Position numbers and translations under genes: made by a program. Source: Terrimicrobium sacchariphilum (GTDB lineage Bacteria; Verrucomicrobiota; Verrucomicrobiia; Chthoniobacterales; Terrimicrobiaceae). Taken from it: a DNA stretch of 64,000 nucleotides. This document shows positions 1-20,553 of this stretch, one piece after another. Where the stretch lies: assembly GCF_001613545.1 (NCBI RefSeq), contig NZ_BDCO01000003.1, positions 1 to 64,000 of the forward strand, written 5' to 3'. The notes under the pieces are model-generated. The model worked only from the letters and a program-made list of their open reading frames with translations, did no database searches and had not been told where the DNA came from. How positions within the stretch are numbered: the stretch's first letter is position 1; each line of letters begins with the position of its first letter.

Positions 1-1014
1 GTGGAGTTGAACAACCGCTACAGCGCGAACACGACGCCGCTGCGGCTGGATTTGAGCCTGCGGTATGACAACCTGTGGCAGCTGGGACACACGATCGGGT
101 TTGGATTTCAGATCGCACCGCAGCGGATTCAGGACGCGCTGATTTATTCCGGGTATTACATCGCGCCGGTGCCGGGGGTGGACTGGCTGAGCGTGATGGC
201 GCAGGCCATCCGGCAGAACAGCAACGTGTCGACCCTGGGTGGTTCCGCCGTGGCGGGAAATGGCTCGGTCATCGGCGGGCGGTTGCTCTTCGACCTGCCG
301 GGGAAAAAGGGCTTTTTTCACTCGGCGAGTTTCGGGGCGGATTACAAGGACTTCACGCAGGACCTGAGCATCAACGGGGCAACGACGGGATCGCCGATCC
401 AGTATTTTCCGTTCTCGCTCAGCTACACGGCGGCGTGGGTGGGGAAGAACTACCAGACGGAGTTTAGCGGAGGGGTGACGTGGAGTTTTCGGGGGATCGG
501 CAGCGACGAGACGGATTTCGACAACCGCCGGTACGCGTCGGACGCGAGCTTCTTCTACTTCCGAGGCAGCCTGGGCAACACGCTGGATCTTCCATGGGGC
601 TTCCAGGCGTATGGACTGGTTCAGGGACAGGCCAGCGCGCAGCCGCTGGTGGATACCGAGGAGTTTGCGCTCGGCGGTTTGAACACCGTGCGCGGGTATC
701 TGGAAAGTGCGGTGCTGGGCGACAGCGCCTTTGCCGGAACGCTGGAGTTGCGGAGTCCGTCGCTGCTGTGGTGGGCGCCGGAGGGCAACGAATGGCGGGT
801 GTTTGGATTCCTCGACGGAGGCGTGGCCTGGGTAAACGACCCGCTGCCCGAGCAGCAGGACGAGTTCAGTCTGGCGAGCGCGGGGTTCGGCAGCACGATC
901 AAGCTCTTTGAACACCTCAACGGCTCAGTGGTGCTGGGAGTGCCATTCATCACGCAAAGCCCGAACACGGCGTACGACCCGCTGCTGTCGTTCCGGGTCT
1001 GGGGAGAACTGTAA
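1..1014 (+). CDS. TpsB-type outer-membrane transporter (FhaC/ShlB family), C-terminal part
   Basis: Outer-membrane barrel of a two-partner secretion (Type Vb) system, which exports a large filamentous exoprotein. The reading frame is open from base 1, so the POTRA domains and the true start lie upstream of the window; about 337 residues of barrel are visible. The best diagnostic is the GGLNTVRGY segment (residues 225-233), the VRGY motif of the inward-folded loop L6 in the Omp85/TpsB superfamily, followed by a GDSAFAGTLELR strand. The protein ends in VWGEL rather than the more usual terminal aromatic residue. The cognate exoprotein gene lies seven genes downstream on the same strand (8,220-19,643). 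Family assignment is firm; partnership with that exoprotein is inferred from the operon. Confidence 0.85.
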   Translation: MELNNRYSANTTPLRLDLSLRYDNLWQLGHTIGFGFQIAPQRIQDALIYSGYYIAPVPGVDWLSVMAQAIRQNSNVSTLGGSAVAGNGSVIGGRLLFDLPGKKGFFHSASFGADYKDFTQDLSINGATTGSPIQYFPFSLSYTAAWVGKNYQTEFSGGVTWSFRGIGSDETDFDNRRYASDASFFYFRGSLGNTLDLPWGFQAYGLVQGQASAQPLVDTEEFALGGLNTVRGYLESAVLGDSAFAGTLELRSPSLLWWAPEGNEWRVFGFLDGGVAWVNDPLPEQQDEFSLASAGFGSTIKLFEHLNGSVVLGVPFITQSPNTAYDPLLSFRVWGEL

Positions 1015-1022
1015 AAATTTCT

Positions 1023-2846
1023 ATGCAGGTAAGAACATTCATAATGACCATGGCCATGCTGGGGGTGACCCTTGCAACGGGAAGCGCGTGGTGGGACAAG
1101 GACTGGACGGCGCGCAAATCGTTCACGATCGACCCGACGGCGCAGGGCGGAGACATCTCGGAGCCGGTGGGTCCGGGCGTGGTGCTGGTGAGGCTGCACA
1201 GCGGGAATTTCAACTTTGGAGCCGTCAAGGAGGATGGAAGCGACCTGCGGTTCGTGGCCGAGGACGACAAGACCGTGCTGCCGCACCAGATCGAGAAATG
1301 GGACGGGCTGCTGAACGAAGCCTTCGTCTGGGTCAAGGCGCCCGAGATCAAGCCCGGGGCGAAAACAACCTTCTGGCTCTACAGCGGGAATGCCGAGGCC
1401 ACGGCGCTCGACGCCAAGGCCGTCAAGGGCACGTACGACGCCGACACCGTGCTGGTGTATCACTTTGCCGGAGCCGGAGCGCCGCAGGACGCGAGCGAAG
1501 CAGGCAATACGGCGGAAAACGCCGGGACGGCGTCCGAGGGAGCGCTCATCGGTGGCGGCCTGCGCCTGCTGGGAGCGAATCCGCTGGTTTTGCCGGGATC
1601 GAGTTCGCTGGAATGGTCCGACGGCCAGGCCTTTACGTGGTCGGCGTGGATCAAGGAAAGCACGCCCGCGGCGAACGCGACCCTCTTCAACCGCACGGCG
1701 GGTGGCAATGGCTTCCGCATCGGAGTCGACAACGGCGCGCCGTTTGTGGAAGTGACCGACGCCAGCGGAGTCAAGCGCACGGCAGCAGGCCAGCCGCTGC
1801 CCGCCGCGACCTGGAAGAACCTCGCGGTCGTTTCCGATGGAGCGAAAATCAAGCTGCTCGTCGACGGCGCGGACTACGCCACGCTCGACGCCAAGGTGCC
1901 CGCCATCAACGGCCCGTCCTATCTGGGTGCGACCGGCCCCGATGCCACCGGCGGATTCGTGGGCGAGCTCGACGAACTTGTCATCTCCAAGATCGCACGT
2001 CCTGTCGGCTGGGTGAAATTCACAGCGATCAACCAAGGCGGAAGCGACGCCAGCACGAAGCTGCTCGTTCCCGGCGAAGACGAGGGCGGAGAAGGCCATA
2101 GCACGCTCGACAACATCATGGAGCACGTGTCGATCTTCGGCGACATCAGCAAGTCGCTCACCTTCGACGGCTGGGCGGTCATCGCCCTGTGCTCGATCAT
2201 GGCCATCCTCGGGTGGACCGTGGCGGTGCAGAAGTTTGTCTATCTCAACCAGGTCAAGAAAGGCACCGACCAGTTCATCCAGCAGTGGGAGGAGGTGTCT
2301 TCCGACCTGACGAAGATCGACCACGCTGACGAGGCCAGTGTGAAGGCTCTCGGCGGAGCCAGCGTCAAGCAGCAGAAGCTCATGCTGCAAAGCCCGCTCT
2401 ATCACATCTATCACATCGGCTCGCAGGAGATCAGCCACCGCATCAAGGAAGACAAAAACAAGGGACTCTCCGCGCGGTCCATCCAGGCGATCCGGGCCAG
2501 CCTCGAGGGCGGCCTCGTACGCGAGGTGCAGAAGCTCAACGGCAAGCTCGTTTTCCTGACCATCAGCATCGCAGGCGGTCCCTATCTCGGACTGCTCGGC
2601 ACGGTCATAGGCGTTATGATTACGTTTGCGACCATCGCCAAGACGGGCGAGGTGGAAGTCAATTCCATCGCCCCCGGCATCGCGGGCGCGCTTCTCGCCA
2701 CCGTCGCTGGTCTGCTCGTGGCCATTCCGGCGCTCTTTGCCTACAGCTACCTGAGCACCCGCATCAAGGAAACGGTCAGCACGATGCAGACCTTCATCGA
2801 CGAGTTCGTGACCAAGATGGCGGAGTTCTACCCCACGCCGGAATAA
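1023..2846 (+). CDS. Fusion of DUF2341 and LamG-like lectin domains to a MotA/TolQ/ExbB proton channel
   Basis: A 607-residue inner-membrane protein. Residues 1-22 form a signal peptide, followed by a DUF2341-type start (WWDKDWTARKSFTID, from about residue 23). A concanavalin/LamG-like beta-sandwich spans about 155-325 (TWSAWIKES, FRIGVDNG). Then comes a classical ExbB/TolQ module: TM1 near 383-405, a cytoplasmic helical region, and two C-terminal membrane helices with GPYLGLLGTVIGV (about 519) and PGIAGALLATVAGLLVAIPALF (about 550-575). ExbB is normally about 240 residues, so more than half of this protein is extra periplasmic sequence. It begins 8 bases after the TpsB stop and ends 4 bases before ExbD. 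Role: a proton channel that powers TonB with ExbD; the lectin part could bind glycan or peptidoglycan (inference). Confidence 0.85.
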   Translation: MQVRTFIMTMAMLGVTLATGSAWWDKDWTARKSFTIDPTAQGGDISEPVGPGVVLVRLHSGNFNFGAVKEDGSDLRFVAEDDKTVLPHQIEKWDGLLNEAFVWVKAPEIKPGAKTTFWLYSGNAEATALDAKAVKGTYDADTVLVYHFAGAGAPQDASEAGNTAENAGTASEGALIGGGLRLLGANPLVLPGSSSLEWSDGQAFTWSAWIKESTPAANATLFNRTAGGNGFRIGVDNGAPFVEVTDASGVKRTAAGQPLPAATWKNLAVVSDGAKIKLLVDGADYATLDAKVPAINGPSYLGATGPDATGGFVGELDELVISKIARPVGWVKFTAINQGGSDASTKLLVPGEDEGGEGHSTLDNIMEHVSIFGDISKSLTFDGWAVIALCSIMAILGWTVAVQKFVYLNQVKKGTDQFIQQWEEVSSDLTKIDHADEASVKALGGASVKQQKLMLQSPLYHIYHIGSQEISHRIKEDKNKGLSARSIQAIRASLEGGLVREVQKLNGKLVFLTISIAGGPYLGLLGTVIGVMITFATIAKTGEVEVNSIAPGIAGALLATVAGLLVAIPALFAYSYLSTRIKETVSTMQTFIDEFVTKMAEFYPTPE

Positions 2847-2850
2847 GGAA

Positions 2851-3252
2851 ATGGACGCCGGAGGAGACAACAAGAGTTACGACGACATCAACGTCACGCC
2901 GATGGTGGATCTCTACCTCGTGCTGCTACTGATCTTCATCATCATGACGACGGCGGGCGTGCAGGGCGTGAAGGTCGATCTCCCGAAGGCAAGCAAGAGC
3001 CCGGCGCTGGAAGGTCCCAAGAGCAAAGCCATCACGGTGAACAACGAAGGAAAGATTTTCCTCGATACCGTGCCCGTGACGCTGCCCGAGTTGGAGCAAA
3101 AGCTCAGCCAGCACAAGGCGAAGTTCCCGGATTTTCCCGTCGTCATCCGCGGCGACCGGCTCACGCATTATCAGGGCGTGATGGACGTTCTCAACGTCGT
3201 TGGGCGCCTCGGGCTGACCAAGGTCGGCCTCGCCACCGAAGCCAGCAAATAG
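2851..3252 (+). CDS. exbD: ExbD/TolR family biopolymer transport protein
   Basis: A 133-residue protein with the standard ExbD plan: a short cytoplasmic N-terminus, one membrane helix (about 17-38) and a periplasmic domain. The helix carries the family aspartate in PMVDLYLVLLLIF, the residue needed for proton flow in ExbD/TolR. The C-terminal part (PVVIRGDRLTHYQGVMDVLNVV) is the usual ExbD/TolR fold. It lies 4 bases after the lectin-ExbB gene and 6 bases before tonB, so the three are almost certainly cotranscribed and form one ExbB-ExbD-TonB energising unit. Confidence 0.9.
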   Translation: MDAGGDNKSYDDINVTPMVDLYLVLLLIFIIMTTAGVQGVKVDLPKASKSPALEGPKSKAITVNNEGKIFLDTVPVTLPELEQKLSQHKAKFPDFPVVIRGDRLTHYQGVMDVLNVVGRLGLTKVGLATEASK

Positions 3253-3258
3253 ACCCTC

Positions 3259-3957
3259 ATGCAGGACGAAGACACACCCACATTCTTTCAGCGCTACCGC
3301 GTGATCATCATCGCGGTGGGCGTGCTGGCGCTTGTCGTCGGCGGATGGGTCGTCTTCGGACCGAAGGAAGGCAAGAAGCGCAAATCGACCGCCAGCGTGA
3401 TGAGCATCATGCCGCCGCTGCCGCCCCCGCCGCCACCACCAACCCCTCCGCCGCCGACGCCGCCCCCGCCGCAGGAACCGCCGCCGGAGCAGACCAAACA
3501 GCCTGAGTTTCAACCCGAGGAAAAACCCGCGCCCGAGCCGCCGCAGCCGCCCGACAATCCGCCGCCCGCAATGGGCACGGCGTTGCAGGGCGATGGCCCC
3601 AACAGCTTTGGCCTGTCCGGCACCGGCAACGGTCTCATCGGAGGCCGTGGCAATGGCAAGGGCGGGGGAGGCGGAACCAAATACGGCTGGTACGCCGGGC
3701 AGGTCCAGGCCCGCGTGCTCGAGGCGATGCAACGGCATCGCAAGCTGCGCAGCTCGGCCTTGACCGTGCAGGTGCGGATCTGGGCCGACAGCAACGGGCG
3801 CGTGACGCGCGCCAAGGTGAGCGGGACGAGCGGAGACGCCGCCATCGACCAGGCCCTCGAGCGCGAAGTGCTCACGGGTCTGCAACTCAGCCAGCCGCCG
3901 CCTGACGGGATGCCCATGCCCATCGTGATGCGCATCACCGCGCGCCGACCCAATTAG
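3259..3957 (+). CDS. tonB: TonB family energy transducer
   Basis: A 232-residue protein with the TonB architecture. A short N-terminus is followed by a membrane anchor at about 12-32 (VIIIAVGVLALVVGGWVVF). A long proline-rich spacer runs over about 50-110, with several PPPPP runs and P/E/Q-rich stretches. A glycine-rich hinge (GNGLIGGRGNGKGGGGG) precedes a TonB C-terminal domain at about 150-232 that contains VQVRIWADSNGRVTRAKVSGTSGD. The spacer would cross the periplasm so that the C-terminal domain reaches an outer-membrane partner. No classical TonB-dependent receptor is encoded nearby; the outer-membrane proteins in this operon are a TpsB and a porin, which raises the question of what this TonB contacts. 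Confidence 0.88.
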   Translation: MQDEDTPTFFQRYRVIIIAVGVLALVVGGWVVFGPKEGKKRKSTASVMSIMPPLPPPPPPPTPPPPTPPPPQEPPPEQTKQPEFQPEEKPAPEPPQPPDNPPPAMGTALQGDGPNSFGLSGTGNGLIGGRGNGKGGGGGTKYGWYAGQVQARVLEAMQRHRKLRSSALTVQVRIWADSNGRVTRAKVSGTSGDAAIDQALEREVLTGLQLSQPPPDGMPMPIVMRITARRPN

Positions 3958-3962
3958 TTTTC

Positions 3963-6674
3963 ATGAAGAGACAGACCAACCCACGCCGAATGATGAATTG
4001 CCTCCTCCTGCTTGCGGGTGGAGTAGCTCCGCTCATCGGCGCGCATGCTCAGGATTCTGCCCGTCCGGCTCCGTCGCCCATCATCAATCAGAGCGGCGGA
4101 CGCACCCGCATCATTTTCGATTACGCCGAGCCCACTCCGGCCGCCGCCCCGACGGCCACCCCGGTCGCGACCCCGACCGCCTCGACCTCATTGTCCACCC
4201 CCGAGCCGTGGCCGCTCGGCACCCCGGTGCCCACGGCCACCCCGGAAGCGACTCCGGCTCCAGACGCGATTTCCACGCCGGAACCCGCCGCAACCCCCGA
4301 GCCCGTGGCTACGCCGACCCCGGCGCCTCTTGCCGCCACGACTCCGGTTTATCTTAACACCCCGACACCGAAACCGCTGATCGACTTTACGCCGACCCCG
4401 GCCAGTCCTGTGGCCGAGGCAACACCTGTGCCTTCGCCGGTTGAAACGACGCCAGCACCTGCCGTGGCGGAAGCGACGCCCGCTCCAGTTGCGCCGACCC
4501 CGGCTGTCGCCGAGGCCATCGCGGCCCCGAGCGTTGCCCCTGTCGTTAGCGAAGCCACTCACACACCTGCACCGAGTGCTCCGGCAGTGGCCGAAGCCAC
4601 CCCCGCGCCGACGCCGGAGGAAACCCCGGTGGATCAGCGCCCGGCGGAAGTGTTCCCGAATCCCGCCAGACAGCAGGCCGTTGTCACATCGCCGACCCCG
4701 TCGGTTGCACCCGCCCCGGCTACACTGGATTCCGCATTTCCTGCTCCCACCGCACCGCCGCAACCTGTCGCCGCGATTAAACCGCAGCCGGTTGAAGAAC
4801 CTGCTCCGCAGGCTCCCGCCGCGCCAGCGCCTCAGCCCGCACACACCGCCGCCGCACCGCAAAACGAGCCGGTGCCCGACGTCGCCGCAGCCGCCGAGTC
4901 CGCCAACCTCGCTTTGCCCAGCGCGCAGGACAAGCGTCCCGCCTCTGAGAGCGTGACGATCAACCTCATCAACAAGCTCGTTCAGCGCGGCCTCCTCACC
5001 AAGGAGGATGCCAAGGACATGATCGCACAGGCCGAGGCGGAAGCCGAAGCCACCCGCGCGCAAGCCCAGGCCGACATGTTTGCCATCGCGCAGGTCGCCG
5101 CCGCCCAGGCCGTGAGCGATCAGGGCGCAGTCGCGCAAGCGCAGGCCGGACCCACGCCATCCGACAGCGATGTGCGCGTGACCTACATCCCCGAGCCGGT
5201 CAAAACGCAGATTAAAGAAGACATCAAAATGGAGCTGGTCAACGAGAGCCGCGCCTCCGGCAAGCCGCTGCTCGGCGGTCCGAATGTCGCGAGCTTCCTC
5301 CCTGCCTGGGTCAACCGCGTCCATCCCTTCTTTGACCTGCGCCTGCGCTACGAAGGCATCTTCTATCCCGATGGCAACGACGTGACCGGCGCGTTTCCGA
5401 ACTTCAACGCCATCAACACCGGCCAGCCCTTCAACACCGCAGGCGACCAGTTTTCGCCGCAGTACAACGCCGATCAGAACCGCAACCGCTTCCGCATCCG
5501 CGTACGTGGCGGAGCCGAGATGGATCTGACGGATAACTTCACCACCGGATTTCGCATCGCCACCGGCGAGACGAATTCCCCGGTGACGACCAACCAGACC
5601 ATCGGCCTGAACAACAACGGACAGGGCGGCCAGTTCAGCAAATACGCCATCTGGCTCGACCGTGCCTATCTGAAATACGAAGTCAGCGCGAAGGATGACG
5701 ACCGCAGTCTCTCCGTCATCGGCGGTCGTTTCGATAATCCCTTCTTCAACACCTCGCTCATCTGGGATGACGACCTCGGCTTTGACGGCGCGGCCATGGT
5801 GGCGCGCTACCAGGTCTTCGACGGGTTTACCCCATGGCTCGTGGGCGGAGCCTTCCCGGTCTACAACACCGACCTGAACTTCTCGTCCAACCAGCCGCAG
5901 AAGTTCGCCAGCTACGACAAGTTCCTCTTCGGCGGCCAGCTCGGCTTTGACTGGTCTCCGGCCAAGGACTGGAAGGTGAAGTTTGGCGCGGCCTACTACT
6001 ACTTCTACAACATCGAGGGCAAGCTCTCCGATCCCTACACACCGCAGAACATTAACGACGCGGGCAACACGGACAACAGCCGTCCGTCCTTTGCCCAGAA
6101 GGGCAATACCTACATGGCCCTGCGCAACATCGTGCCGGATGCAAGCAACGATTATGGCACAATCAACCAGTGGCAGTACTACGGACTCGCGACGAAGTTC
6201 CAGGACTTCACCGTGACCGCGCGTATTGACTACAATGGCTGGGAACCCGTCCAGGTTTCGCTCATCGGCGAGTACGTCCAGAACCTCGCTTTCAACAGCA
6301 GCGCGATCAACGAGATCGCGGTCAATAACCGTGGCGCGGTTGATACGACCGAGCTGGACAACATCGGCGACTTCGAGGGCAGCCCGTACGGCTGGAACGT
6401 CGAGCTGCGCGTCGGCACGCCTGCGCTGGCCAAGGCGTGGGACTGGTACATTTCCGGCGGCTACCGCTACATCGGCTCCGACTCCGTGGTCGACGGGTTC
6501 AACGATTCCGACTTCGGCCTCGGAGGCACCAATATGCAGGGCTACACCGTCGGTGCAGCCGTCGCGCTAAACCCCAATGTCTGGCTGGCCGTGCGCTGGT
6601 ACGGCGCGGAAAACATCGCCGGTCCGACCTACAAGGTCGACGTGTTCCAGTTCGACCTCAACGCCAAGTTCTAA
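3963..6674 (+). CDS. Putative outer-membrane porin with a long Pro/Ala/Thr-rich N-terminal arm
   Basis: A 903-residue protein with a signal peptide at about 1-29 (LLLLAGGVAPLIGAHAQ). Residues about 45-325 are low-complexity sequence built from ATP, PTP and PAP units, likely an extended periplasmic arm. Next is a helical segment (ESVTINLINKLVQRGLLTKEDAKDM, then Ala/Glu/Gln-rich) seen in putative-porin family proteins. The last ~460 residues have alternating aromatic/polar beta strands and end in FDLNAKF; the final Phe fits a BAM-recognised barrel. It sits 5 bases after tonB, and its stop overlaps the next start (TAATG). The arm is far longer than in ordinary porins of this type. Channel function is inferred from the family; substrate unknown. 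Confidence 0.72.
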   Translation: MKRQTNPRRMMNCLLLLAGGVAPLIGAHAQDSARPAPSPIINQSGGRTRIIFDYAEPTPAAAPTATPVATPTASTSLSTPEPWPLGTPVPTATPEATPAPDAISTPEPAATPEPVATPTPAPLAATTPVYLNTPTPKPLIDFTPTPASPVAEATPVPSPVETTPAPAVAEATPAPVAPTPAVAEAIAAPSVAPVVSEATHTPAPSAPAVAEATPAPTPEETPVDQRPAEVFPNPARQQAVVTSPTPSVAPAPATLDSAFPAPTAPPQPVAAIKPQPVEEPAPQAPAAPAPQPAHTAAAPQNEPVPDVAAAAESANLALPSAQDKRPASESVTINLINKLVQRGLLTKEDAKDMIAQAEAEAEATRAQAQADMFAIAQVAAAQAVSDQGAVAQAQAGPTPSDSDVRVTYIPEPVKTQIKEDIKMELVNESRASGKPLLGGPNVASFLPAWVNRVHPFFDLRLRYEGIFYPDGNDVTGAFPNFNAINTGQPFNTAGDQFSPQYNADQNRNRFRIRVRGGAEMDLTDNFTTGFRIATGETNSPVTTNQTIGLNNNGQGGQFSKYAIWLDRAYLKYEVSAKDDDRSLSVIGGRFDNPFFNTSLIWDDDLGFDGAAMVARYQVFDGFTPWLVGGAFPVYNTDLNFSSNQPQKFASYDKFLFGGQLGFDWSPAKDWKVKFGAAYYYFYNIEGKLSDPYTPQNINDAGNTDNSRPSFAQKGNTYMALRNIVPDASNDYGTINQWQYYGLATKFQDFTVTARIDYNGWEPVQVSLIGEYVQNLAFNSSAINEIAVNNRGAVDTTELDNIGDFEGSPYGWNVELRVGTPALAKAWDWYISGGYRYIGSDSVVDGFNDSDFGLGGTNMQGYTVGAAVALNPNVWLAVRWYGAENIAGPTYKVDVFQFDLNAKF

Positions 6675-7348
6675 TGAAAAAGATATTAGCCGTCCTGTTG
6701 TTGCTTAGCCCGGCGCTGCTCCATGCGGCGGGCGCGGAGGAGGGAGACCCCGTGGTCGCCAAGCTCCGCGAAGCCCTGCGCAACACCATGCTCCAGATGC
6801 GCGACGTGCAAGGTCAGCTCGCCAACGCCCAGGCCGCCCAGATCGCCAGCGACGCCAAGGTGAAGGAACTCACCGCCCAAAACGACAAGCTGACCAGGCA
6901 GATGATCGAGGACAAGAACGCCTCGACCAATTCGATCGCCGAGCTCAACACCCGGCTGGAGGAGCAGGGCGTCGTCATCCAGAAGCTCAACGCCACCGTC
7001 GACCAGTGGAAGCGCGGTTACAACGAAGCCACCGCGCTGGCCCAGAAGAAGGAGGCCGAGCGGGCCAAGGCCGCCGCGCAGATCATCAAGCTCGACCGCA
7101 TCGTGGCCGACCAGCAGATCAAGAACGTCCAGATGTACAAGGTCGGTACCGAGATCCTCGACCGTTACGAGAAGTTCGGGCTTGGCGAGGCCATCCTCGC
7201 CCGCGAGCCGTTTGTCGGCATGACGCGGGCGAAGTTCCAGACCCTCATGCAGGATTATCAGGACAAGCTCGTCGACCAGCGTATTTCCAGTACCAGCAGC
7301 AGTACCACCAGCCCAACTTCCAGCAGCCATGAAAGCAGTAACCATTAG
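6674..7348 (+). CDS. Periplasmic coiled-coil protein of unknown function
   Basis: A 224-residue protein starting at the ATG that overlaps the porin stop codon (TAATG). A signal peptide (MKKILAVLLLLSPALLHAA) is followed by a long heptad-rich helix at about 25-150, rich in Gln, Lys, Asp and Glu (AQNDKLTRQMIEDKN, ELNTRLEEQG). A shorter region mentions LGEAILAREPFVGMTRAKF, and the Ser/Thr-rich tail ends at residue 224. I do not recognise a named family. Its 3' end overlaps the following foldase gene by 20 bases, so the two are translationally linked. A chaperone, spacer or assembly role for the neighbouring outer-membrane proteins is conceivable, but nothing in the sequence proves it. Confidence 0.75.
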   Translation: MKKILAVLLLLSPALLHAAGAEEGDPVVAKLREALRNTMLQMRDVQGQLANAQAAQIASDAKVKELTAQNDKLTRQMIEDKNASTNSIAELNTRLEEQGVVIQKLNATVDQWKRGYNEATALAQKKEAERAKAAAQIIKLDRIVADQQIKNVQMYKVGTEILDRYEKFGLGEAILAREPFVGMTRAKFQTLMQDYQDKLVDQRISSTSSSTTSPTSSSHESSNH

Positions 7349-8204: not shown

Positions 8205-8219
8205 CTCTCTCGCCCGCGC

Positions 8220-11200: not shown

Positions 11201-14200
11201 CGCCGTGAAGGGCGGCACGCTCAGCATCACGGCCCCGCTGATTCAGGTCGGGGGTGCCAGTCCATACAAGGAGGCTTTTGTGGTGCAGCCGGAGTTCTTT
11301 AGCCAGGGCGGTTTCAACTCCTTCAAGCTCACCGGCATCGGGATGAAGCTCGCGGGCAGCCAGCCGGAGGATTTTGTGCCCGCGGTATTCATCGCACCGG
11401 GAACGATCATCGCACCGAGAGCGCAGGCGACCGTGGTCCAGCCTTTGCAACCGGGCCAGATGAATGTGGCTTACACCAGGGAGGTGCTTCCCGATGGCGT
11501 GCGACAGCCGGTTGATCTGGAGTTTTCGGCCCCGGGCGTCACCAACGCCTTCGATTCCAATGTCATGGACGTTCGCGGCGATATTGTCTTTTCGCCCGGC
11601 GCGAAAATCCTGGCTGATCCCGGCTCCGACATCACCTTTCGAGGCAATACCGTCTCGATCTTTGGCAGCGTCTATGCGCCTGGAGGGTCGATCACGATCG
11701 TTGGCAGAAACTCCTTCCCATATTCCTATTTTGGCAGTTCGGTCCTTCCCACCACGGCCAGAGCCACTGTCTATCTGGCTCCCTCTGCCTATCTGAGCAC
11801 TGCTGGCGCGGCCGTTTATGCGCCTGATCCTTTCGGCCGCCGGGTTGGTACTGTCTTTGGCGGTGGCGCTATCGCGATTTCCGGCAATATCTACGCGGAC
11901 GAGCAAGCCACCCTTGATGTGTCCGGTGCGAGCGGAGTCTTCGACCTCACTCTGGCGGAACTCGGTTTATCCGCCACAGCGGAGCAAATGACACGCAGCG
12001 GCGTGACCGCGACCCCGTATGGGTTCCTGGGATACGCCAAGCGGCTTGAAACCAACGCAGGCTCTATCACGCTGACCGGTGGCGAGATGCTCTACGCGCA
12101 CGCCAGACTCATCGGCCAGCCCGGCGGAGATTCCGCGCTTGGCGGTTCCCTCTCGGTTTCATCCGGGCGGTTCTATCCGACAGATGACAAGACCTCAGCG
12201 GATCTGAATCTCCTGGTCACCCAGAACGACACCCACAACATTCAGGCGATTAAGAAGGTGGGGGACTCGTTGCGTTCGACGTCGGGCGCTGCTCTCCTCG
12301 GAGGCGGTTTTTTCTCCGTCGATACTTTTGACAACGGCGGGTTTGCTTCTCTGACTCTCGGCGGCAACGTGCAGTTCTCCGGCCCGGTTACGATCTCCGC
12401 AGCCAAGGAAATTCGCGTCGCCCGAGGCGGTGTGCTCGCCGCAGACGCGCATGTCGATCTGACTGCTCCCTACGTGGCTCTCGGGCAGGCCTACCGCGCC
12501 CCGTCGCTGCCGACGGAGACGTTCAGCTACTTTACCAAGACCGTGGGAACGACCACGGGGGAGTATAACTTTTCCCCCACCTTTGGCTCTGGCTCCCTCG
12601 TCGTCAAAGCCGACCTGATCGATCTCGGCGCGCTCTCGTTCCAGGGTGTTGGGGACATCACTCTTGACGCCGCAGGTGGGCAGATCCGGGGAGGCGGTCC
12701 CGTGGATTTTTCAGGCAATCTCGTGATGCGCGCCGCGGCCATCTATCCGGTGAGTGGCCTCGACTTCGCCATTTACGGATACAATTACACCCAGGGAGGC
12801 GCCTCGAAGGGCAGTGTGGTCTCGATCGAGCGGGCGGGCTTCACCCAGTCGCCGCTTTCCGCGCAGGGTAGACTCGCCATCTATGCGGCGACCATTAACC
12901 AGTCCGGCGTTCTGCTTGCTCCCTTCGGACAGATCGCTCTTGGCTGGGATGGAGTCGGCACCGCCCCGGTCGACCCGATCGCCCGGACGGCTGCGACCAT
13001 TCCGACCGCTTCGCAAGTCAACCTCGGCGCGGGCAGCGTGACATCGGTCGCCGGTCTCGATTACGTCACCGGCCAGCCGTTGCTCGTCCCCTACGGTCTC
13101 AACCCCGACGGCCTTGCCTGGCTCGATCCGTCAGGGTTTGACATCACCTCGACCGGATTGTCGGGCAAATCGGTTTCTCTCGCTGGCTCGTCGGTAAACT
13201 TCTCAAGCGGAGCCACCATCGACATGCGCGGCGGCGGCGATCTCTTCTCGTACCGCTGGGTGCAGGGCAACGGCGGATCGAAGGACATTCTCGCCTCCGA
13301 GGACAGCTTTGCCATCGTTCCGGGCTACACCAGCAATTTTGCCCCTTACGCGCCCTTCAATACCTCCGCGGCAGCCACCGCGCTGGATGGCGATCCCGGC
13401 TACGTCAACAGCAAGCTTTCGGTTGGAGACTCGATCTACCTCCAGGCCAGCGCCGGTCTGCCCGCCGGGGAATACACCTTGCTGCCCGCGCGATATGCCC
13501 TGCTTCCGGGAGCATTCCTGGTCAGCCGCAAGTCTGCCAGCGTGATCGGCTCCTATCAGTTTGAGGACGGTTCCAGCACTGTGCCGGGTTATACCTTCAA
13601 TTCGGCGCAAAAGGAAGCCAGCCGCGGAAAGATCTTCTCCCAGTTTGAAGTGCTTCCCTCCTCGGTGGTCGCGTCGCGGGCGGAGTACGAGGTCTACAGC
13701 GCGAATGCGTTCTTTTCAAATGTCGCCGCGGAGCGCGAGCAGGTCGTGTCTCCCATCCCGGCGGATGCCGGCCAGCTCGTCTTCCGCGCCATCTCGAGCC
13801 TGAATATCGCTGGCCGCCTCCAGGCGGCGCCGGATCTGGGCGGCCGGGGCTCGCTGGTCGATATCAGTGCTCAAGCTCCGATCGTGATCGGGGGAGCCAA
13901 TACTACGGTTAGCGCCGGGTCGATCTTCCTCGATGCGGCCCGGCTTTCCTCGCTGGGTGCGGAAAGCCTCCTCATCGGCGGCTTCCGTACTGCCGGTTCG
14001 ACCGGCACCTCGGTGACCACCACAGCCACCAGCATCCGGGTTGATAATGCCGGATCGCCCCTCTACGCGCCCGAGGTTATTCTCACGACCACCGGCGAAC
14101 TGCGACTCGTTTCCGGATCGCAGGTTTATTCCACCGGCAGCCTCACACGACCGGCGGAGAAGCTCCTGCTCTCCGGCGACGGTGCGCTGTTGCGGGTATC

Positions 14201-17200
14201 CAGCGATGCCTCCGCCGACATGCTGCGTACGGGATTCACCGGCGCGCTCGCTCCCTCGCTCGTCTTGGAGGCGGGATCAGCAGTCTCCGGCAGTGGCGTC
14301 ATTCTTGACTCGTCCAACGCCATGAAGCTCGATCCCAATGCCATTATCACTGCTGAGGCGATCTCTCTCAACAGCGGGCAGGTGACCATTCTTCTTAATG
14401 CCCCCGGCACCGTGGCAGCGACCAACGGACTCATTCTTTCCGGGTCCCTGCTTTCCAACTTCGAGTCCTCTTCCCGCAAGTCTCTCCTGAGCTACTCGTC
14501 TCTCGACATCTATGGCACTGGGACGATTGGTGGCAACGGAAGCCTCTCCATCCGCGCGGCTCAGATTCGCGGGTACAACCAGGGAGTCGGCGGCTCCGTC
14601 CATGTCGTTGCAGATACTCTGTCTCTGGATAACTCCCAGAATGGAACCGTCCTCGCGGGAGCGGGATCGACCGGCGGCAATCTCGTCTTTGATACGGGTG
14701 TCGTCACGCTGGGAACGAACACGGTTTCGATTAGTGGATTTGGCAATACGACGATCAATGCGAGCGGCGGGGTCATTGGCTCGGGCTCGGGCGGCCTCAG
14801 TACAGCGGGCCGTCTCACCATCGCCGCACCTCTGATTGCCGGTGCCAAGGGCGCGACCCAGAGCATCACTGCTGGAGGTCAGCTGGTGCTGACCAGTCTC
14901 GCCGGGGGCTCTGCGACTGTCACCTCAGGTCTTGGCGCCAGCATGTCGTTCACTGGTTCCAGTGTCGCAGCCGACACGGATATCGTGCTCCCCAGCGGAG
15001 CCGTTACTCTCGCATCCACGGCGGGCGGCATTGAGGTCAATGGGCTGATCGACGTTAGCGGAATCTCGCGGGATTTCTACGACGTGACGGAGTACACGGA
15101 CGCGGGCTCTATCTCCCTTGCCGCTGTGGGCGGGGATGTCGTCATCGGATCTTCCGGTCAGATCAACGTTTCCTCCGCTGCCGGAGGTGGTAATGCGGGA
15201 ACACTCAGCATCAGTGCACCCCAGGGCGTCTTCACCTCGGCAGGATCTCTTGTTGGGTCAGCCGGGGCGGGGTGGAGGTCCGGCACCTTCATTCTCGATA
15301 TCTCCGCCTTGCCGACCCTTTCCTCGGTAAATCAGAGTTTCAGCGCGGATGACTTTAATTATGAGCGTTCCTTCCGGGTTCGCACCGGCATTGTCACAGT
15401 GGACGGCACCTCGAAGGCTCGTAAGTTCACACTCGCTGCCGATCAAGGCGATGTCACCGTGACTGGTTCGATCATGGCCAATGGGGAGACCGGGGGTGCG
15501 ATTGCCCTTTACGCGCATGGAAGTCTTACCTTGTCCAATGGCTCGCTCCTCGATGCCTCTGGTCGCTACTTCAGCAGCGCGGGCAAAGGCGGTTCCGTCG
15601 ATCTGAGTGCCGGAGCGACCTACAATGGCGTGGCTGGCACTGGCACACTCGATATTTTGGGCGGATCAAAGATCGATCTTTCGGTGGCCGCTCTCGATGT
15701 GGGTTCGCGCCCGAGTTCCTTCTACGGAGATTACAGTGGGGTCCTCCATTTGCGCGCCCCGCAGATTACGGGGAGCACGGACCTTGCCTTGAGTCCTGTG
15801 AGGGGAGCCATTTTCGGAGCCTCAGCCATCATCGTCGAGGGCTACCGTGTCTTTGATCTGACTTCCGTTTCGGGATTGATCTCGGCCACGGGCTCGACCG
15901 TACAAGCCCAGGGAGGTGCGATAACCTCGGCCAATGTCAATGTGCGGGAAAGCATCCGCCAGAACGGCGTCCTTTTCGGCGGAAACGATGTGGCGATTTC
16001 CTCCCGCCTCTTCACCGGAGCCAACGCCGGTCTCGCCAGCATCGCCGTCATCTCGCCGGGAGCGGAGATCGTCAACCGCAACGCCAACGGCAACATCACC
16101 CTGGGAACCACGACCTCGACCACTTCGCAGGATTGGAATCTCTCGACCTACCGCTTCGGCTCGAAGAGCGCTCCTGGCATCATCACGATGCGTACGGCGG
16201 GCAATCTGGTCTTTTACAATACCATGAGCGACGGCTTCCAGGCCGTGACCGCTGCCGCCGATAACGGCTGGTCGACCATGTGGCTGGCTCCGCTCATGGC
16301 GCGAAACAATCTGCTGCCCGGCAACGTGCAGTCATACTCCTATAATCTGGCCGCAGGTGCGGACCTGACTTCGGCCAATATCCTCGGCGTGCTGCCCATG
16401 ACCAGCCTCGGTAGCGAGCTCGGTTCTGTCCAGATCGGCAAAAACCTCGGTCAGGCAATCGGAACCACCGGAGCCAATGCGACGACGGCCCGCATTATCG
16501 GCAGTTCGTCGACCGCTGCGAATAACTTCAACGTCATCCGCACCGGAACCGGCGACATCAATATCGCCGCCGGCCGTGACGTGCAGTTGCTCAACCAGTT
16601 CGCCACCATCTACACTGCAGGCGTCCGGGTCGCTTCCTCAGACTCGATCTACACAGCCGGGGACTTCTCCGTCCCGGTGCTCATTGACCAGGACGGGTTC
16701 CTGGCTGGAACGACGCAGGGCGCTCTCGGCAACTACCAGCAGGTTTATCCGGCGCAGTACTCCATGGCGGGCGGCAACGTCTCTGTCTTCGCCCAGCGAA
16801 ACATCGGGCACTACACCCGCAATGGCTCAAGCACGACGCTTATCGCCGACTCCAGCCGCCAGATCCCGACGAACTGGCTCATGCGCCGAAGCTACATTGA
16901 CGGTTCCGGAAGTTACGGCTCCTTCACGGCCTCGGGCAACGGTACCTCCATCACCGATCCCTCTGCCTCGACTTCCTGGTGGGTGGACTTCAGCAACTTC
17001 TTCGAAGGTGTCGGTGCTCTCGGCGGTGGCAATGTGACGCTCAAGGCTCTTCAGGATGTCGTGAACGTCGATGCCGTGGCTCCGACCAACGCCCGCGCTC
17101 CCAAGGGGCTGGCCGATGCCACCCTTCTGCTCGAGCTCGGTGGCGGTGATGTCACTGTCTCGGCCGGGCGCAATATCGACGGTGGCATCTATTACGTTGA

Positions 17201-19643
17201 GAATGGCGTCGGCACGCTCACTGCGGGGGGACAGATCAAGACCAACTCCACCCGCTCGCCCTCCCTCGGCCTCATCAAGAGCCTTACCTCGCCCGAGGTG
17301 CTCGACGAGAATACCTGGCTCCCGACCACTCTCTTCGCTGGCAAGGCGACCTTCAATGTCTCCGCTCGCGGCAATGTTCTCTTGGGACCGACGCTCAATG
17401 CCTTCCTCGTTCCGCAGGGATTGACCAATCGCTATTGGTATCGATCCGCCTTCTCCACCTATGGCGCAGATTCCTCCGTCAACGTGTCGTCGCTCGGCGG
17501 ATCGGTGAATCTCCGCTATAACGCGATCCCACCGACCTCCAACACCTCGCTGCCGATCTTCCAGTACTGGCTCCAGCAGGAAAATCTCTATCGTTCCAGT
17601 GCGGGCAACACGATCGCGGCGGCCTACTACCCGTGGATTCGCCTGGGTGAGACTTCCGTCGATCCATTCAGTACGGCGGTAACCGTGCTTCCGCCCACGC
17701 TCGATGTCACGGCCTTCTCCGGCGATATTAACGTGGCGGGCAACCTAACCCTTTATCCGTCTGCCACGGGCAACCTATCGTTGAAAGCTGCCGGATCGAT
17801 CAACGGCCTCCAGAAGGTCGGCGTTTCCAACAACCTCAACGGCGCTCGCACGACGTTGTCGGGCTGGATGCCCTCCACCATCACCATTTCCGATGCCTCG
17901 CCGTCCTTGCTGCCAGGCGTCGCCTCGTCGACCTCCAACCTCGCGCGGTTCTCCAACACATCAAACCTCCTGTTGAGCAATCTCATCACAAGCTCGTCCG
18001 CGCTGTTCACCACCTTTGATCGCAGCTTCAAGGAGACTGCCACGACCACCAGCGTCATTCAGACCAAGCAGGCGCTCCATGCGTCAGGCCTCCTGCACGC
18101 GGCGGACTCCGAGCCGGTCAGGCTCTATGCCTCGGGCGGGGATATCCTGGATGTCACGCTCTTCGCGCCGAAACAGACGCGCATCATGGCTTCCAACGAC
18201 ATTCGAGATATCGCCTTCTACATCCAGAATGTTTCCGAGAATGACTACTCTCTCGTGCAGGCGGGTCGCGATATCGTCCTTTACGACGCCAACACCCCGG
18301 GACTCACTCAGGCCGCCGCCAGTGGCAGCGCCCTCTTGCCCACCTCGCTCATCCCGGCGGGAGATATCCAGATCAGCGGACCGGGCGCACTTGGAGTTTT
18401 CGCCGCTCGTAATATTGACCTCGGCGTCGGCTCTACCCGGAGCGACGGCACGGGCGTCGGTATCACAAGTATTGGCAACTCCCGCAACCCCTACCTCCCG
18501 TTCTCTGGTGCGGATGTGACGGTGGCGGCCGGCTTGAATGTTGAGGGCGCCACTCAGAGTCTCGACGTTGATGGTTTCCTGGCCAAGTTCGCAGCGGACG
18601 GCCCTGATTCATCCTATCTCTCGGAGGCGCTGGCTTCCATGGCGACCGATGGCGCGAAAAAGGACCTCGGCTCGCTGTCCGACGACGAAAAGCGCACGCT
18701 TGCCTTCAAGATTCTCTTCCAGATTCTGCGCGATACCGGTCGGGCGTATGCCACCGCCGGCAACTACGAGGCTGGGTTCTCCGCCCTTTCCGCCCTCATC
18801 GAAACCTCGGGAGAAGGAAATCTCAATCTCCGCGGTCGCGATGTGCGTACTCGCAACGACGGCGACATCACTCTCCTGGCCCCAGGCGGCAGCCTTTCGT
18901 TGGCCTCTTCCACCATTGGGAATCCGCTCGCTCCTCCGGGTATCGTCACCGAGCGGGGCGGTGCGATATCGATCCTTACTCAGGGCGACGTGGATCTTGG
19001 CATCGGGCGTATCTTTACCCTGCGCGGCGGCAATATCATCATCTGGTCTTCCGCAGGAGACATCGCGGCGGGCTCCTCGCCCAAGACCGTCCGATCCGCC
19101 CCGCCGACTCGCGTCGTCATCGATCCGCAGTCGGCCACCGTTGAGACCGACCTTGCTGGTCTCGCTACCGGCGGCGGTATCGGCGTGCTTGCCTCGGTCG
19201 TCGGCGTTCCTCCGGGAGACGTCGACCTTATTGCTCCGAATGGAGCGGTCGATGCGGGTGATGCGGGCATCCGCGCCACGGGCAACCTGAGCATCGCCGC
19301 GGTCAAGGTTCTGAACGCCGACAACATCTCCGTGGCGGGATCCACCACTGGCGTGCCCACCACTGCGCCTCCAGCCGCGCCGAATATCGCGGGCCTTTCC
19401 TCCGCATCGTCTGCCACCGCCGCCACCGCCAGCGCCTCCAGCGAAATGGCGAGCCAGAACAAGCAGCAGCCCGCTCAGGACGAGACGCCATCCATCATCA
19501 CAGTCGACGTTCTGGGGTATGGCGGCGGCGACGATGGCGCCGTGCCGGATGCGCGTTCGGCAACTCCGCAGGATGCCGCCCCGGCTGAAAAATCTCCCGA
19601 TGAAGACGACCCAAACAAACCTCGACCCACAGGTTCTGCCTAG
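8220..19643 (+). CDS. Giant filamentous haemagglutinin-like exoprotein (TpsA)
   Basis: A protein of about 3,807 residues. The start is either TTG at 8,220 or ATG at 8,238; the TTG sits 15 bases after the foldase stop. An N-terminal signal (about 10-36, LLIAALGLLALAHLGYAG) is followed by a Lys/Ala-rich stretch. The TPS domain covers about 100-265 and carries the signature NQNGI at residues 198-202 (family consensus NPNGI), preceded by HWKTFNVG and followed by NTRALVASS. The rest is a long beta-helix of irregular repeats rich in G, S, T and N with few charges. The acidic tail contains ITVDVLGYGGG, resembling the end of FHA-family proteins with DUF3739. No barrel is fused, so export needs the TpsB at the start of the operon. 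Likely a surface adhesin or fibre. Confidence 0.88.
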   Translation: MKLLRSMIVRRLSRPTGLLIAALGLLALAHLGYAGDILRGGVSSTGRKNADARAGAGAEAATVTKANAKDRLARTTQALASVQAMQAKARASAAGTVVPEGLQPGGLEVLTGANARWDGADSPTQSGSLVTIKQRDTQALLHWKTFNVGQNTTVKFDQSAGKDDASKWIVFNKVFDLTGKPSQIRGQIQAEGQVYIINQNGIVFGAGSQVNTRALVASSLPINNNLVQRGLLNNAASQFLFTNIEDAGQGDVPTFTPDVPLTPDKRVGGVVVEAGATISSPLNAEGNGGRIMLVGANVSNAGTLYAPAGQVIMAAGLQVGVGAHSTDDPSLRGLDVYVGEVGDYAAAATNSGIISVPRGHAFLTGKQVEQMGVIDSSTSVALNGRIDLIAAYGAVRVISTGSDIKAPFRFTQSGVVTFGSDSVTRILPESASSEKTVGLELALPSLVNVQGYAINLGRNATILAPGAKLPTGEDVVKPLSYLDPLAAGIQLSAGSFRSTDGTFMYSGGQVFLASGSLIDASGTAGAASQVNQNILNLSLRSGELADSPLQRDGFVRGLSITVDVRRTGTYNGRDWIGTPLADVTGFADLIERNVDQLTVAGGTVQIKSGGSFVAQKGSIIDVSGGWTDYQAGTSFRTTRLMSSGQLINIEDATPDRLYDGVYTGLSMKTHQKWGVSRTYATPLAPLGADSGQAYIQGADAGTIVIEAPSMILDGDMLGRSVIGPRQIRTSSFSSSLPAQSSVALRFRSQYLYGADILDASPTPPTVLLQAGSSSSTLSAFSVNASGEPAAIPHDRQETVNISPSLFGESGFGSVEIENMEGDINVPKGVVVQTREGGSLKLSAANVSVQGSIISPGGSITVSAYNYSPFAAALLRKTVVSATDLPARADHGRIDVAAGSVISAAGTVIDERAAAVEQALSPIAQNGGTISLSGYDVSIARGSTLDVSGGMTVSPTGKFSFGNGGQLTIAAGQDLSLASVLGGELKLNGTLLGYSAVKGGTLSITAPLIQVGGASPYKEAFVVQPEFFSQGGFNSFKLTGIGMKLAGSQPEDFVPAVFIAPGTIIAPRAQATVVQPLQPGQMNVAYTREVLPDGVRQPVDLEFSAPGVTNAFDSNVMDVRGDIVFSPGAKILADPGSDITFRGNTVSIFGSVYAPGGSITIVGRNSFPYSYFGSSVLPTTARATVYLAPSAYLSTAGAAVYAPDPFGRRVGTVFGGGAIAISGNIYADEQATLDVSGASGVFDLTLAELGLSATAEQMTRSGVTATPYGFLGYAKRLETNAGSITLTGGEMLYAHARLIGQPGGDSALGGSLSVSSGRFYPTDDKTSADLNLLVTQNDTHNIQAIKKVGDSLRSTSGAALLGGGFFSVDTFDNGGFASLTLGGNVQFSGPVTISAAKEIRVARGGVLAADAHVDLTAPYVALGQAYRAPSLPTETFSYFTKTVGTTTGEYNFSPTFGSGSLVVKADLIDLGALSFQGVGDITLDAAGGQIRGGGPVDFSGNLVMRAAAIYPVSGLDFAIYGYNYTQGGASKGSVVSIERAGFTQSPLSAQGRLAIYAATINQSGVLLAPFGQIALGWDGVGTAPVDPIARTAATIPTASQVNLGAGSVTSVAGLDYVTGQPLLVPYGLNPDGLAWLDPSGFDITSTGLSGKSVSLAGSSVNFSSGATIDMRGGGDLFSYRWVQGNGGSKDILASEDSFAIVPGYTSNFAPYAPFNTSAAATALDGDPGYVNSKLSVGDSIYLQASAGLPAGEYTLLPARYALLPGAFLVSRKSASVIGSYQFEDGSSTVPGYTFNSAQKEASRGKIFSQFEVLPSSVVASRAEYEVYSANAFFSNVAAEREQVVSPIPADAGQLVFRAISSLNIAGRLQAAPDLGGRGSLVDISAQAPIVIGGANTTVSAGSIFLDAARLSSLGAESLLIGGFRTAGSTGTSVTTTATSIRVDNAGSPLYAPEVILTTTGELRLVSGSQVYSTGSLTRPAEKLLLSGDGALLRVSSDASADMLRTGFTGALAPSLVLEAGSAVSGSGVILDSSNAMKLDPNAIITAEAISLNSGQVTILLNAPGTVAATNGLILSGSLLSNFESSSRKSLLSYSSLDIYGTGTIGGNGSLSIRAAQIRGYNQGVGGSVHVVADTLSLDNSQNGTVLAGAGSTGGNLVFDTGVVTLGTNTVSISGFGNTTINASGGVIGSGSGGLSTAGRLTIAAPLIAGAKGATQSITAGGQLVLTSLAGGSATVTSGLGASMSFTGSSVAADTDIVLPSGAVTLASTAGGIEVNGLIDVSGISRDFYDVTEYTDAGSISLAAVGGDVVIGSSGQINVSSAAGGGNAGTLSISAPQGVFTSAGSLVGSAGAGWRSGTFILDISALPTLSSVNQSFSADDFNYERSFRVRTGIVTVDGTSKARKFTLAADQGDVTVTGSIMANGETGGAIALYAHGSLTLSNGSLLDASGRYFSSAGKGGSVDLSAGATYNGVAGTGTLDILGGSKIDLSVAALDVGSRPSSFYGDYSGVLHLRAPQITGSTDLALSPVRGAIFGASAIIVEGYRVFDLTSVSGLISATGSTVQAQGGAITSANVNVRESIRQNGVLFGGNDVAISSRLFTGANAGLASIAVISPGAEIVNRNANGNITLGTTTSTTSQDWNLSTYRFGSKSAPGIITMRTAGNLVFYNTMSDGFQAVTAAADNGWSTMWLAPLMARNNLLPGNVQSYSYNLAAGADLTSANILGVLPMTSLGSELGSVQIGKNLGQAIGTTGANATTARIIGSSSTAANNFNVIRTGTGDINIAAGRDVQLLNQFATIYTAGVRVASSDSIYTAGDFSVPVLIDQDGFLAGTTQGALGNYQQVYPAQYSMAGGNVSVFAQRNIGHYTRNGSSTTLIADSSRQIPTNWLMRRSYIDGSGSYGSFTASGNGTSITDPSASTSWWVDFSNFFEGVGALGGGNVTLKALQDVVNVDAVAPTNARAPKGLADATLLLELGGGDVTVSAGRNIDGGIYYVENGVGTLTAGGQIKTNSTRSPSLGLIKSLTSPEVLDENTWLPTTLFAGKATFNVSARGNVLLGPTLNAFLVPQGLTNRYWYRSAFSTYGADSSVNVSSLGGSVNLRYNAIPPTSNTSLPIFQYWLQQENLYRSSAGNTIAAAYYPWIRLGETSVDPFSTAVTVLPPTLDVTAFSGDINVAGNLTLYPSATGNLSLKAAGSINGLQKVGVSNNLNGARTTLSGWMPSTITISDASPSLLPGVASSTSNLARFSNTSNLLLSNLITSSSALFTTFDRSFKETATTTSVIQTKQALHASGLLHAADSEPVRLYASGGDILDVTLFAPKQTRIMASNDIRDIAFYIQNVSENDYSLVQAGRDIVLYDANTPGLTQAAASGSALLPTSLIPAGDIQISGPGALGVFAARNIDLGVGSTRSDGTGVGITSIGNSRNPYLPFSGADVTVAAGLNVEGATQSLDVDGFLAKFAADGPDSSYLSEALASMATDGAKKDLGSLSDDEKRTLAFKILFQILRDTGRAYATAGNYEAGFSALSALIETSGEGNLNLRGRDVRTRNDGDITLLAPGGSLSLASSTIGNPLAPPGIVTERGGAISILTQGDVDLGIGRIFTLRGGNIIIWSSAGDIAAGSSPKTVRSAPPTRVVIDPQSATVETDLAGLATGGGIGVLASVVGVPPGDVDLIAPNGAVDAGDAGIRATGNLSIAAVKVLNADNISVAGSTTGVPTTAPPAAPNIAGLSSASSATAATASASSEMASQNKQQPAQDETPSIITVDVLGYGGGDDGAVPDARSATPQDAAPAEKSPDEDDPNKPRPTGSA

Positions 19644-20553
19644 CCGCGGCATCATCCTCAGCGCCATGATGGCGGTGGCATCTCTTGGCCCGATGACCCT
19701 CGCCTTTGCCGTTGACGCGAGCCCGGTTCCCTCGCCTGCGGCCTCTCCTGCTCTCGATGCCCACGGAGCCAAGGCGCTTTACGCCAAGGGCCTCGCCCTG
19801 CTGAGGGGAACCGGCGGGACCAAGGACGCCGCCGCCGCGGGCAAACTCTTCCAGGAGGCCGCGCAGGCGGGCAGTCCCGAGGCCCAGGCGGCACTGGGCT
19901 ATCTCTATTCCGTGGGGCAGGGCATGCCCAAGGATGAGGATCTGGCCATCAAGTATCTGCGCATGGCTTCCGCGCAAAAGCTGGCTTCCGCCCAGCACAA
20001 CCTGGCCATCATGCTTCTGCGCAAGGACGCCGCTGCCAACGAGGCCGAGGCCATCGTCCTTCTTTCGGACGCCGCGGACCGGGGATTTCTCCCTTCGCAG
20101 ATCGAGCTCGGCGAAACCTATTTTGATGGCAAGTGGACCATTAAGCCCGATCCCGACAAGGCATTCCATTTCATGCAACTCGCCGCGGCCCGGGGTAATG
20201 CTTCCGCCGCAAACTACCTCGGTGTTATGTATAACACCGGGAGCGGCGTGACGATGGATAAGGCCCAGGCAGCTCAGTGGTTTGAGAAAGCCGCCCGGCA
20301 GGGTGAGGCAAAGGCGCTCGTAAATCTTGGCCGGTGCTACGCTTCGGGATCAGGTGTAGAAAAAAATCTCGTTACTGCCTACGCCTTGTTCAAGCTCGGT
20401 AATGAAATTCGCACCGGCTCGATTGGAATCGAGCTTACCGAGATGGAGCACAATCTTACTCCCGAGCAGCGCCAGGAGGCGGTGAAGGTGATGGGTTCTT
20501 ATCGGGAGAGCGCTGGGGTGACCGCTCCTTCCGTCAAGGAAATCGCCCTCTGA
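19600..20553 (+). CDS. Secreted Sel1-like/TPR repeat protein
   Basis: A protein of about 317 residues if it starts at the ATG at 19,600, which overlaps the exoprotein gene by 44 bases. This start puts a signal-like hydrophobic segment (IILSAMMAVASLGPMTLAFA) near the N-terminus; earlier in-frame starts run further into the exoprotein gene. The mature part is a series of Sel1-like repeats of about 36 residues, for example AQAALGYLYSVGQGMPKDEDLAIKY, followed by units with GVMYNTGSGVTMDKAQA and LGRCYASGSGVEKN. Sel1 repeats form a helical solenoid that binds other proteins. Being last in the operon and coupled to the exoprotein, it could assist secretion or anchoring; that is inference. Confidence 0.8.
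   Translation: MKTTQTNLDPQVLPSRGIILSAMMAVASLGPMTLAFAVDASPVPSPAASPALDAHGAKALYAKGLALLRGTGGTKDAAAAGKLFQEAAQAGSPEAQAALGYLYSVGQGMPKDEDLAIKYLRMASAQKLASAQHNLAIMLLRKDAAANEAEAIVLLSDAADRGFLPSQIELGETYFDGKWTIKPDPDKAFHFMQLAAARGNASAANYLGVMYNTGSGVTMDKAQAAQWFEKAARQGEAKALVNLGRCYASGSGVEKNLVTAYALFKLGNEIRTGSIGIELTEMEHNLTPEQRQEAVKVMGSYRESAGVTAPSVKEIAL

Follow-up and report, generated by a model that had tools for sequence, protein, structure and literature searches.

A two-partner secretion locus of Terrimicrobium sacchariphilum with a porin and a TonB module of its own, and a C-terminal tag common to its exoproteins

Type Vb secretion is taught as a matter of two proteins, an exoprotein (TpsA) and its transporter (TpsB), with no energy needed at the outer membrane. 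TpsB-type transporters are not known to require TonB. What, then, is an ExbB-ExbD-TonB motor doing inside a two-partner secretion (TPS) locus? The question is raised by the window, the 64,000-nucleotide stretch of T. sacchariphilum DNA analyzed here. A first-pass annotation placed nine close-packed plus-strand genes at positions 1-20553. Open reading frames and Pfam domains bear out their coordinates and strand, and the identities it gave to the genes are consistent with the domain evidence.

The locus opens with the 3' part of tpsB (1..1014), which encodes the second half of the outer-membrane transporter (ShlB PF03865, E=4.1e-11). Next is a gene (1023..2846) where DUF2341 (PF10102) and Laminin_G_3 (PF13385) are fused to an ExbB/TolQ proton channel (PF01618). 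The DUF2341 and Laminin_G_3 part of this lectin-ExbB is probably periplasmic. The same fusion is found in loci on Methylosinus and Klebsiella plasmids; the literature mentions DUF2341-ExbB fusions merely as an unexplained appendage (PMC12505986). Then come exbD (2851..3252; PF02472, E=2.3e-27) and tonB (3259..3957; PF13103, E=1.7e-10). The features of a motor are present: channel motifs in ExbB/TolQ, the channel Asp in the ExbD transmembrane motif NVTPMVDLYLVLLLIF, and, in TonB, one transmembrane helix, a Pro-rich spacer and a TonB_2 C-terminal domain (nt 3682-3933).

Downstream lie genes for a Porin_5 protein (3963..6674; PF16930, E=1.4e-186), for a periplasmic coiled coil that matches no family in the Pfam scan (6674..7348), and for a PpiC-type peptidyl-prolyl isomerase (7329..8204; PF13145/PF00639). 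The filamentous exoprotein itself, of 3807 amino acids, is encoded by tpsA (8220..19643, although the Met start may be at 8238). It has the N-terminal TPS domain of a type Vb substrate (aa 125-249; PF05860, E=6.9e-16) and, near its other end, DUF3739 (aa 3603-3714; PF12545). Last is a lineage-specific companion, a Sel1-repeat protein (19519..20553, with a likely start at 19597; PF08238), whose homologue stands 3' of tpsA in one other genome (G013). From tpsB on, the genes are separated by 8, 4, 6 and 5 bp, overlap by 1 and 20 bp, and are then separated by 15 bp; such tight spacing suggests a single transcript. A further ExbB-family channel gene (44530-44826, in a 310-aa frame) lies in the window apart from the cassette.

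Base 1 of the window is the end of its contig (C3:1), and the window's tpsB is therefore cut there. Bases 1-8170 are an 8.17-kb repeat, whose second copy, 99.98% identical, is on the minus strand of contig C2 (C2:3006968-2998799; blastn, 100% and 99.98%). Here, tpsB is complete, its 560 amino acids including the POTRA (POTRA_2) and the ShlB barrel of a type Vb transporter. Immediately 5' of this copy (L010, upstream of 3006968) is a type II secretion operon with pseudopilins, a GspL-like protein, GspD, GspE and GspF; 3' of its ppiC there is no tpsA. The end of a third contig (C1:1-127) overlaps window bases 1-127 exactly, and bears the 5' half of a different tpsB. Between copies, tpsB is a mosaic, 65% identical as protein in its 5' half and identical thereafter. 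The repeat and the exact overlap imply that the assembly broke at the repeat and that the genome holds two cassettes. Contig C1 has a second DUF3739 TpsA with PstS-like and PEP-CTERM genes of its own. The genome has, then, two cassettes and two TpsAs, in a pairing that the assembly does not fix. Two close relatives, with porins ~90% identical (L066/L067), each hold a single porin cassette, where type II secretion genes are followed by tpsB, the intervening genes, ppiC and tpsA.

Is such a locus new? It had been put forward as the window's best candidate for an undescribed system. This description had to be abandoned, since the pdt/exbB2D2/tonB4 cluster of Pseudomonas aeruginosa holds the same parts, and Llamas et al. 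reported in 2009 that homologues of the TPS, ExbBD and PA0696 proteins are kept together in several Proteobacteria (PMC2729926). That cluster comprises pdtA, phdA, pdtB, exbB2, exbD2, tonB4 and PA0696-PA0699 (PMC2729926, PMC7035377, PMC4971064), with PA0696 a putative porin, PA0698 a YbjN protein and PA0699 a PpiC protein (PMC7035377). The genes from phdA through pdtB, exbB2D2 and tonB4 to PA0696-0701 form a single transcript (PMC4971064). The window's locus is almost certainly the Verrucomicrobiota version of this PUMA3/Pdt cluster, a match made by gene order and annotation in papers, and by annotated relatives.

The two share TpsA, TpsB, ExbB, ExbD, TonB, a putative porin, a signal-peptide protein and PpiC. 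They share also the order from pdtB on, with TpsB, ExbB, ExbD, TonB and putative porin in succession and the signal-peptide protein and PpiC after the porin; the coil is likened to PA0697 by position. Each adjoins a type II secretion locus, which is Hxc in P. aeruginosa (PMC7035377, PMC4971064) and here is beside the C2 copy. They differ in that tpsA stands before tpsB in P. aeruginosa, which also has phdA and YbjN genes, whereas Sel1 or PEP-CTERM neighbours have not been described for it. The P. aeruginosa cluster, moreover, adjoins regulators, VreA-VreI-VreR, and is controlled by VreI and PhoB (PMC7035377, PMC4971064). No such adjacent set (STN/TonB, ECF sigma, FecR) was found in T. sacchariphilum. 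The sole FecR match in its genome (C2:92786) is distant from the two cassettes and also from the C1 TpsA; Vre-type control is thus not shared by this organism.

Annotated plasmids carry this set too. One in Methylosinus carries STN, sigma, FecR, TpsB, ExbB, ExbD, TonB and a putative porin, then a hypothetical protein, PpiC, YbjN, a 4.1-kaa exoprotein and a substrate-binding protein. A Klebsiella plasmid is annotated with ExbB-ExbD-TonB-porin-hypothetical-YbjN-PpiC and, further on, LysR; one in Cupriavidus has the same gene set with type II secretion genes. What the cluster does is another matter. In P. aeruginosa it is regulated by phosphate (Pi) starvation, and its TonB part was termed "still uncharacterized" (PMC2729926, PMC7035377). 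In zebrafish tests, virulence equalled that of wild type for mutants in the tonB homologue, tpsA, tpsB and PA0696 alike (PMC2729926). As a consequence, tonB4 has no known phenotype.

The claim that these genes belong together required that they be found together in relatives, and here it held up well. Full-length Porin_5 and DUF3739-type TpsA occur in identical sets of genomes, 9 of 289 in Verrucomicrobiota and 15 of 399 in Pseudomonadota, with none having one alone; every sampled carrier has both. The chance of identical sets is ~3e-17 and ~2e-27 respectively if genomes are independent, but they are of course related, which makes these figures indicative of strength only. Porin_5 relatives at large were considered and set aside: in 69 further Verrucomicrobiota genomes the match is weak and covers only stretches, and DUF3739 is absent from every one.

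Order is conserved as well. The cassette order recurs in all of the best 80 loci of a scan of named genomes, an arrangement therefore far beyond chance, and TpsB-[lectin]ExbB-ExbD-TonB-porin is seen in all 60 named loci whose upstream sequence is complete. With the lectin part, it was also found in the other Verrucomicrobiota genomes examined. Among the best 80, the coil is present in 75 and PpiC in 42. Porin and coil are core members; PpiC and Sel1 are optional. At 12 of 16 Pseudomonadota porin loci the genes from TpsB to porin are in order. Two genomes of that phylum (G657, G316) have motor and porin with no TpsB detected. In G581 the locus is cut by the contig end, with ExbB to porin in order; in G565, TpsB, porin and coil are together, and the trio of lectin-ExbB, ExbD and TonB is unlinked, kept on another contig. 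On a Methylomagnum plasmid (L150:17899-21750), Porin_5 adjoins cax and phoU; TpsA-TpsB and a PBP_like_2 gene are close by, and the stretch has no ExbBD/TonB. Genome G085 (L051/L052, reversed, 35-39 kb) has a second set, ExbB-ExbD-ExbD, 3' of tpsA, followed by two unclassified genes.

A single cassette can go with more than one exoprotein. In Reyranella (L124/G289), there are four DUF3739 TpsAs to one full-length porin cassette, and in genomes G497 and G677 there are three for each porin. Around the three extra Reyranella TpsAs no TpsB was found within the 30-32 kb read. Upstream of two of them are genes for STN with or without TonB_2 (Pfam scan); one that was read through has the order VreA-like, sigma, FecR-like, TpsA. 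FecR genes adjoin all four. Such numbers point to a shared machine, not to one porin per ligand. Because the co-occurrence is obligate and one cassette accompanies several TpsAs, TpsB, lectin-ExbB, ExbD, TonB, Porin_5 and the coil rod probably constitute one dedicated trans-envelope apparatus for the biogenesis of DUF3739-type TpsA.

Searches of the PDB by sequence gave no useful relatives for porin or coil. In its AF2 model (pLDDT 81), the porin has a barrel of 16 strands and a periplasmic helical arm, and it lacks a plug; before these come a signal peptide and a Pro/Ala-rich linker. A TonB-dependent receptor would have a 22-strand barrel, a plug and an N-terminal TonB box. A segment of the arm near VRVTYIPEVVKxQIRDEIKxE is kept across phyla. 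The stretch before the arm in the window's porin (3963-4920) is ~300 residues rich in Pro, Ala and Thr; in most relatives it is much shorter. The coil is modelled by AF2 as a single helix of 150 residues (26-175); with a rise of 1.5 A for each residue it would span ~225 A, which would suffice to cross a periplasm.

Known systems offer partial parallels. The porin model's best fold match in the PDB is OmpM1 of Veillonella, an outer-membrane attachment porin, followed by DcaP. OmpM likewise has a barrel with a periplasmic helical stalk (PMC10628300), but its stalk carries an SLH peptidoglycan-binding domain, and the Pfam scan found no SLH in the cassette porin. In the HxuCBA haem-haemopexin system of Haemophilus influenzae, too, a TPS locus has a TonB-linked component in the outer membrane (PMC5422565, PMC4873976). 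There, however, HxuC is a TonB-dependent transporter; here there is a 16-strand porin, and TonB, ExbB and ExbD belong to the locus. That export of a protein across the outer membrane can be linked to TonB has a precedent in Oar and PopC of Myxococcus xanthus (PMC6434023), although with a TonB-dependent transporter in place of TpsB and an unrelated substrate.

What might the motor act upon? A candidate is found at the end of the exoprotein. All 34 distinct TpsA C-termini carry a tag close to P-S-I-I-T-V-E-V-L-G-Y-G (PSIITVEVLGYGG-like), 1-66 residues from the stop, after DUF3739 and a flexible, low-complexity linker rich in Ala and Ser. In the window, motif comparison places it, as PSIITVDVLGYGGG, at aa 3757-3770 (19488..19529, plus strand). 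A strict form of the tag has 19 matches in 2.1 million six-frame residues, every one a TpsA C-terminus; a looser form has 27, of which just one lies more than 75 residues before its frame ends. The tag is also in the eight further plasmid TpsAs readable in frame (of 10; L223 and L225 were left out), two of these being close to ones already in the set. The tag, a short and hydrophobic strand that is flexibly tethered, resembles a TonB box. The TonB boxes of receptors are, of course, N-terminal, and their consensus is different. This look, together with the fact that the cassette's TonB-type domain and those of some VreA-like genes belong to one Pfam family (TonB_2), makes TonB the preferred reader; the tag could be read instead by TpsB, the porin, the coil or a protease.

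A mechanism can be sketched on this basis, tentatively and at rather less than even odds, in which TonB engages the C-terminal tag of TpsA. The exoprotein would exit through TpsB with its N-terminus first, while the DUF3739 end with its flexible tail would remain, or halt for a time, in the periplasm. Here, the C-terminal domain of TonB would bind the tag by strand addition. Proton motive force, delivered through lectin-ExbB and ExbD, would then complete the passage of the TpsA fibre, release it, or hold it at the surface, with the porin as a scaffold in the outer membrane and the coil rod as one in the periplasm. In Proteobacteria that have VreA, this protein's TonB-like domain would recognize the tag as well and pass on the status of TpsA to the anti-sigma/sigma pair. 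The first-pass suggestion that export, anchoring or an accessory porin may be coupled to the proton motive force fits the evidence.

The main rival holds that the locus scavenges phosphate or organophosphate, much as HxuABC pirates haem. At the surface, a ligand would be captured by the TpsA fibre, together with PstS-like binders or phosphatases from type II secretion; Porin_5 would be the entry channel, with entry energised or gated by TonB/ExbBD. The neighbourhood speaks for this. In the window, a secreted PstS-like protein (21282..22547) and a PEP-CTERM surface-type protein (22578..23504; PF07589, E=9.7e-7) are encoded on the minus strand, and PstS-like and/or PEP-CTERM genes adjoin the cassette in 27 of 54 loci with enough upstream sequence, PEP-CTERM homologues in other genomes among them. 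The PstS-like family has no match in Pfam, and was recognized by its profile against the PDB (4ecf, E=1.2e-8; 4exl, 8.3e-8). PBP_like_2 proteins neighbour TpsA in Methylosinus and likewise in Methylomagnum, where phoU is present too. In Pseudomonas, hxc type II secretion genes, DING/Lap proteins and TpsA adjoin (PMC2225411, PMC7035377); in P. fluorescens SBW25 the gene for a secreted DING protein has the Hxc genes on one side and a haemagglutinin-type gene of 4083 aa on the other (PMC2225411). Type II secretion genes accompany the C2 cassette and L066/L067, and P. aeruginosa transcription is PhoB-dependent (PMC4971064). The co-conserved PstS-like neighbours and the regulation by Pi fit an uptake role as well. 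Against it, the modelled barrel has no plug for TonB to move, up to four different TpsAs share a porin, and about half of the loci show no PstS-like neighbour. Nor are pho boxes enriched 5' of tpsB: by an E. coli-type consensus, 67 regions, nearly all from Verrucomicrobiota, average 9.13 of 14 matches versus 9.06 in shuffles. Upstream regions of two Pseudomonadota (G391/G599) show the pho-box sequence CTGTCATAAAACTGTTG. Phosphate control is thus established in Pseudomonas but merely suggested for Verrucomicrobiota cassettes, and scavenging is possible without being likely.

Alternatively, the cassette might be an outer-membrane tether that takes part in neither export nor uptake. Lectin-ExbB, the arm of the porin and the coil rod would fix the fibre to peptidoglycan and inner membrane, with TonB/ExbBD supplying tension much as Tol-Pal does. 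A fold closest to an attachment porin and a helix of periplasmic length speak for a tether, and in NCBIfam the best scores of ExbB and TonB are with TolQ and TolA, all below cut-off. The likeness to OmpM is, however, one of overall fold alone, and no SLH, OmpA-like or Pal-like peptidoglycan-binding domain was found in the cassette with Pfam; a tether is unlikely. Finally, TonB/ExbBD modules often act in trans, and the module might serve ordinary TonB-dependent receptors elsewhere, being merely co-transcribed with the TPS locus. This would be surprising indeed, as Porin_5 tracks the DUF3739 TpsA in 24 of 24 genomes, and the trio of lectin-ExbB, ExbD and TonB sits with Porin_5 or is kept even when unlinked. 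Recognition of the tag by TonB is preferred over both uptake and tethering.

What is new here is the identity of the genome sets that hold porin and DUF3739 TpsA, the invariant order, the several TpsAs per cassette, and the universal C-terminal tag. These describe a form of two-partner secretion that, in all 24 genomes, brings along a porin and a TonB motor of its own. It is conceivable, if speculative, that this is a subtype whose motor grips the tag of its exoprotein, with VreA reading that tag too, so that secretion status and expression would share one signal. Tag and cassette offer a way into two questions: why a Pi-starvation locus of P. aeruginosa should contain a TonB system, and what the VreA/VreR sensor may sense. 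The matter now becomes approachable by peptide-binding and deletion tests.
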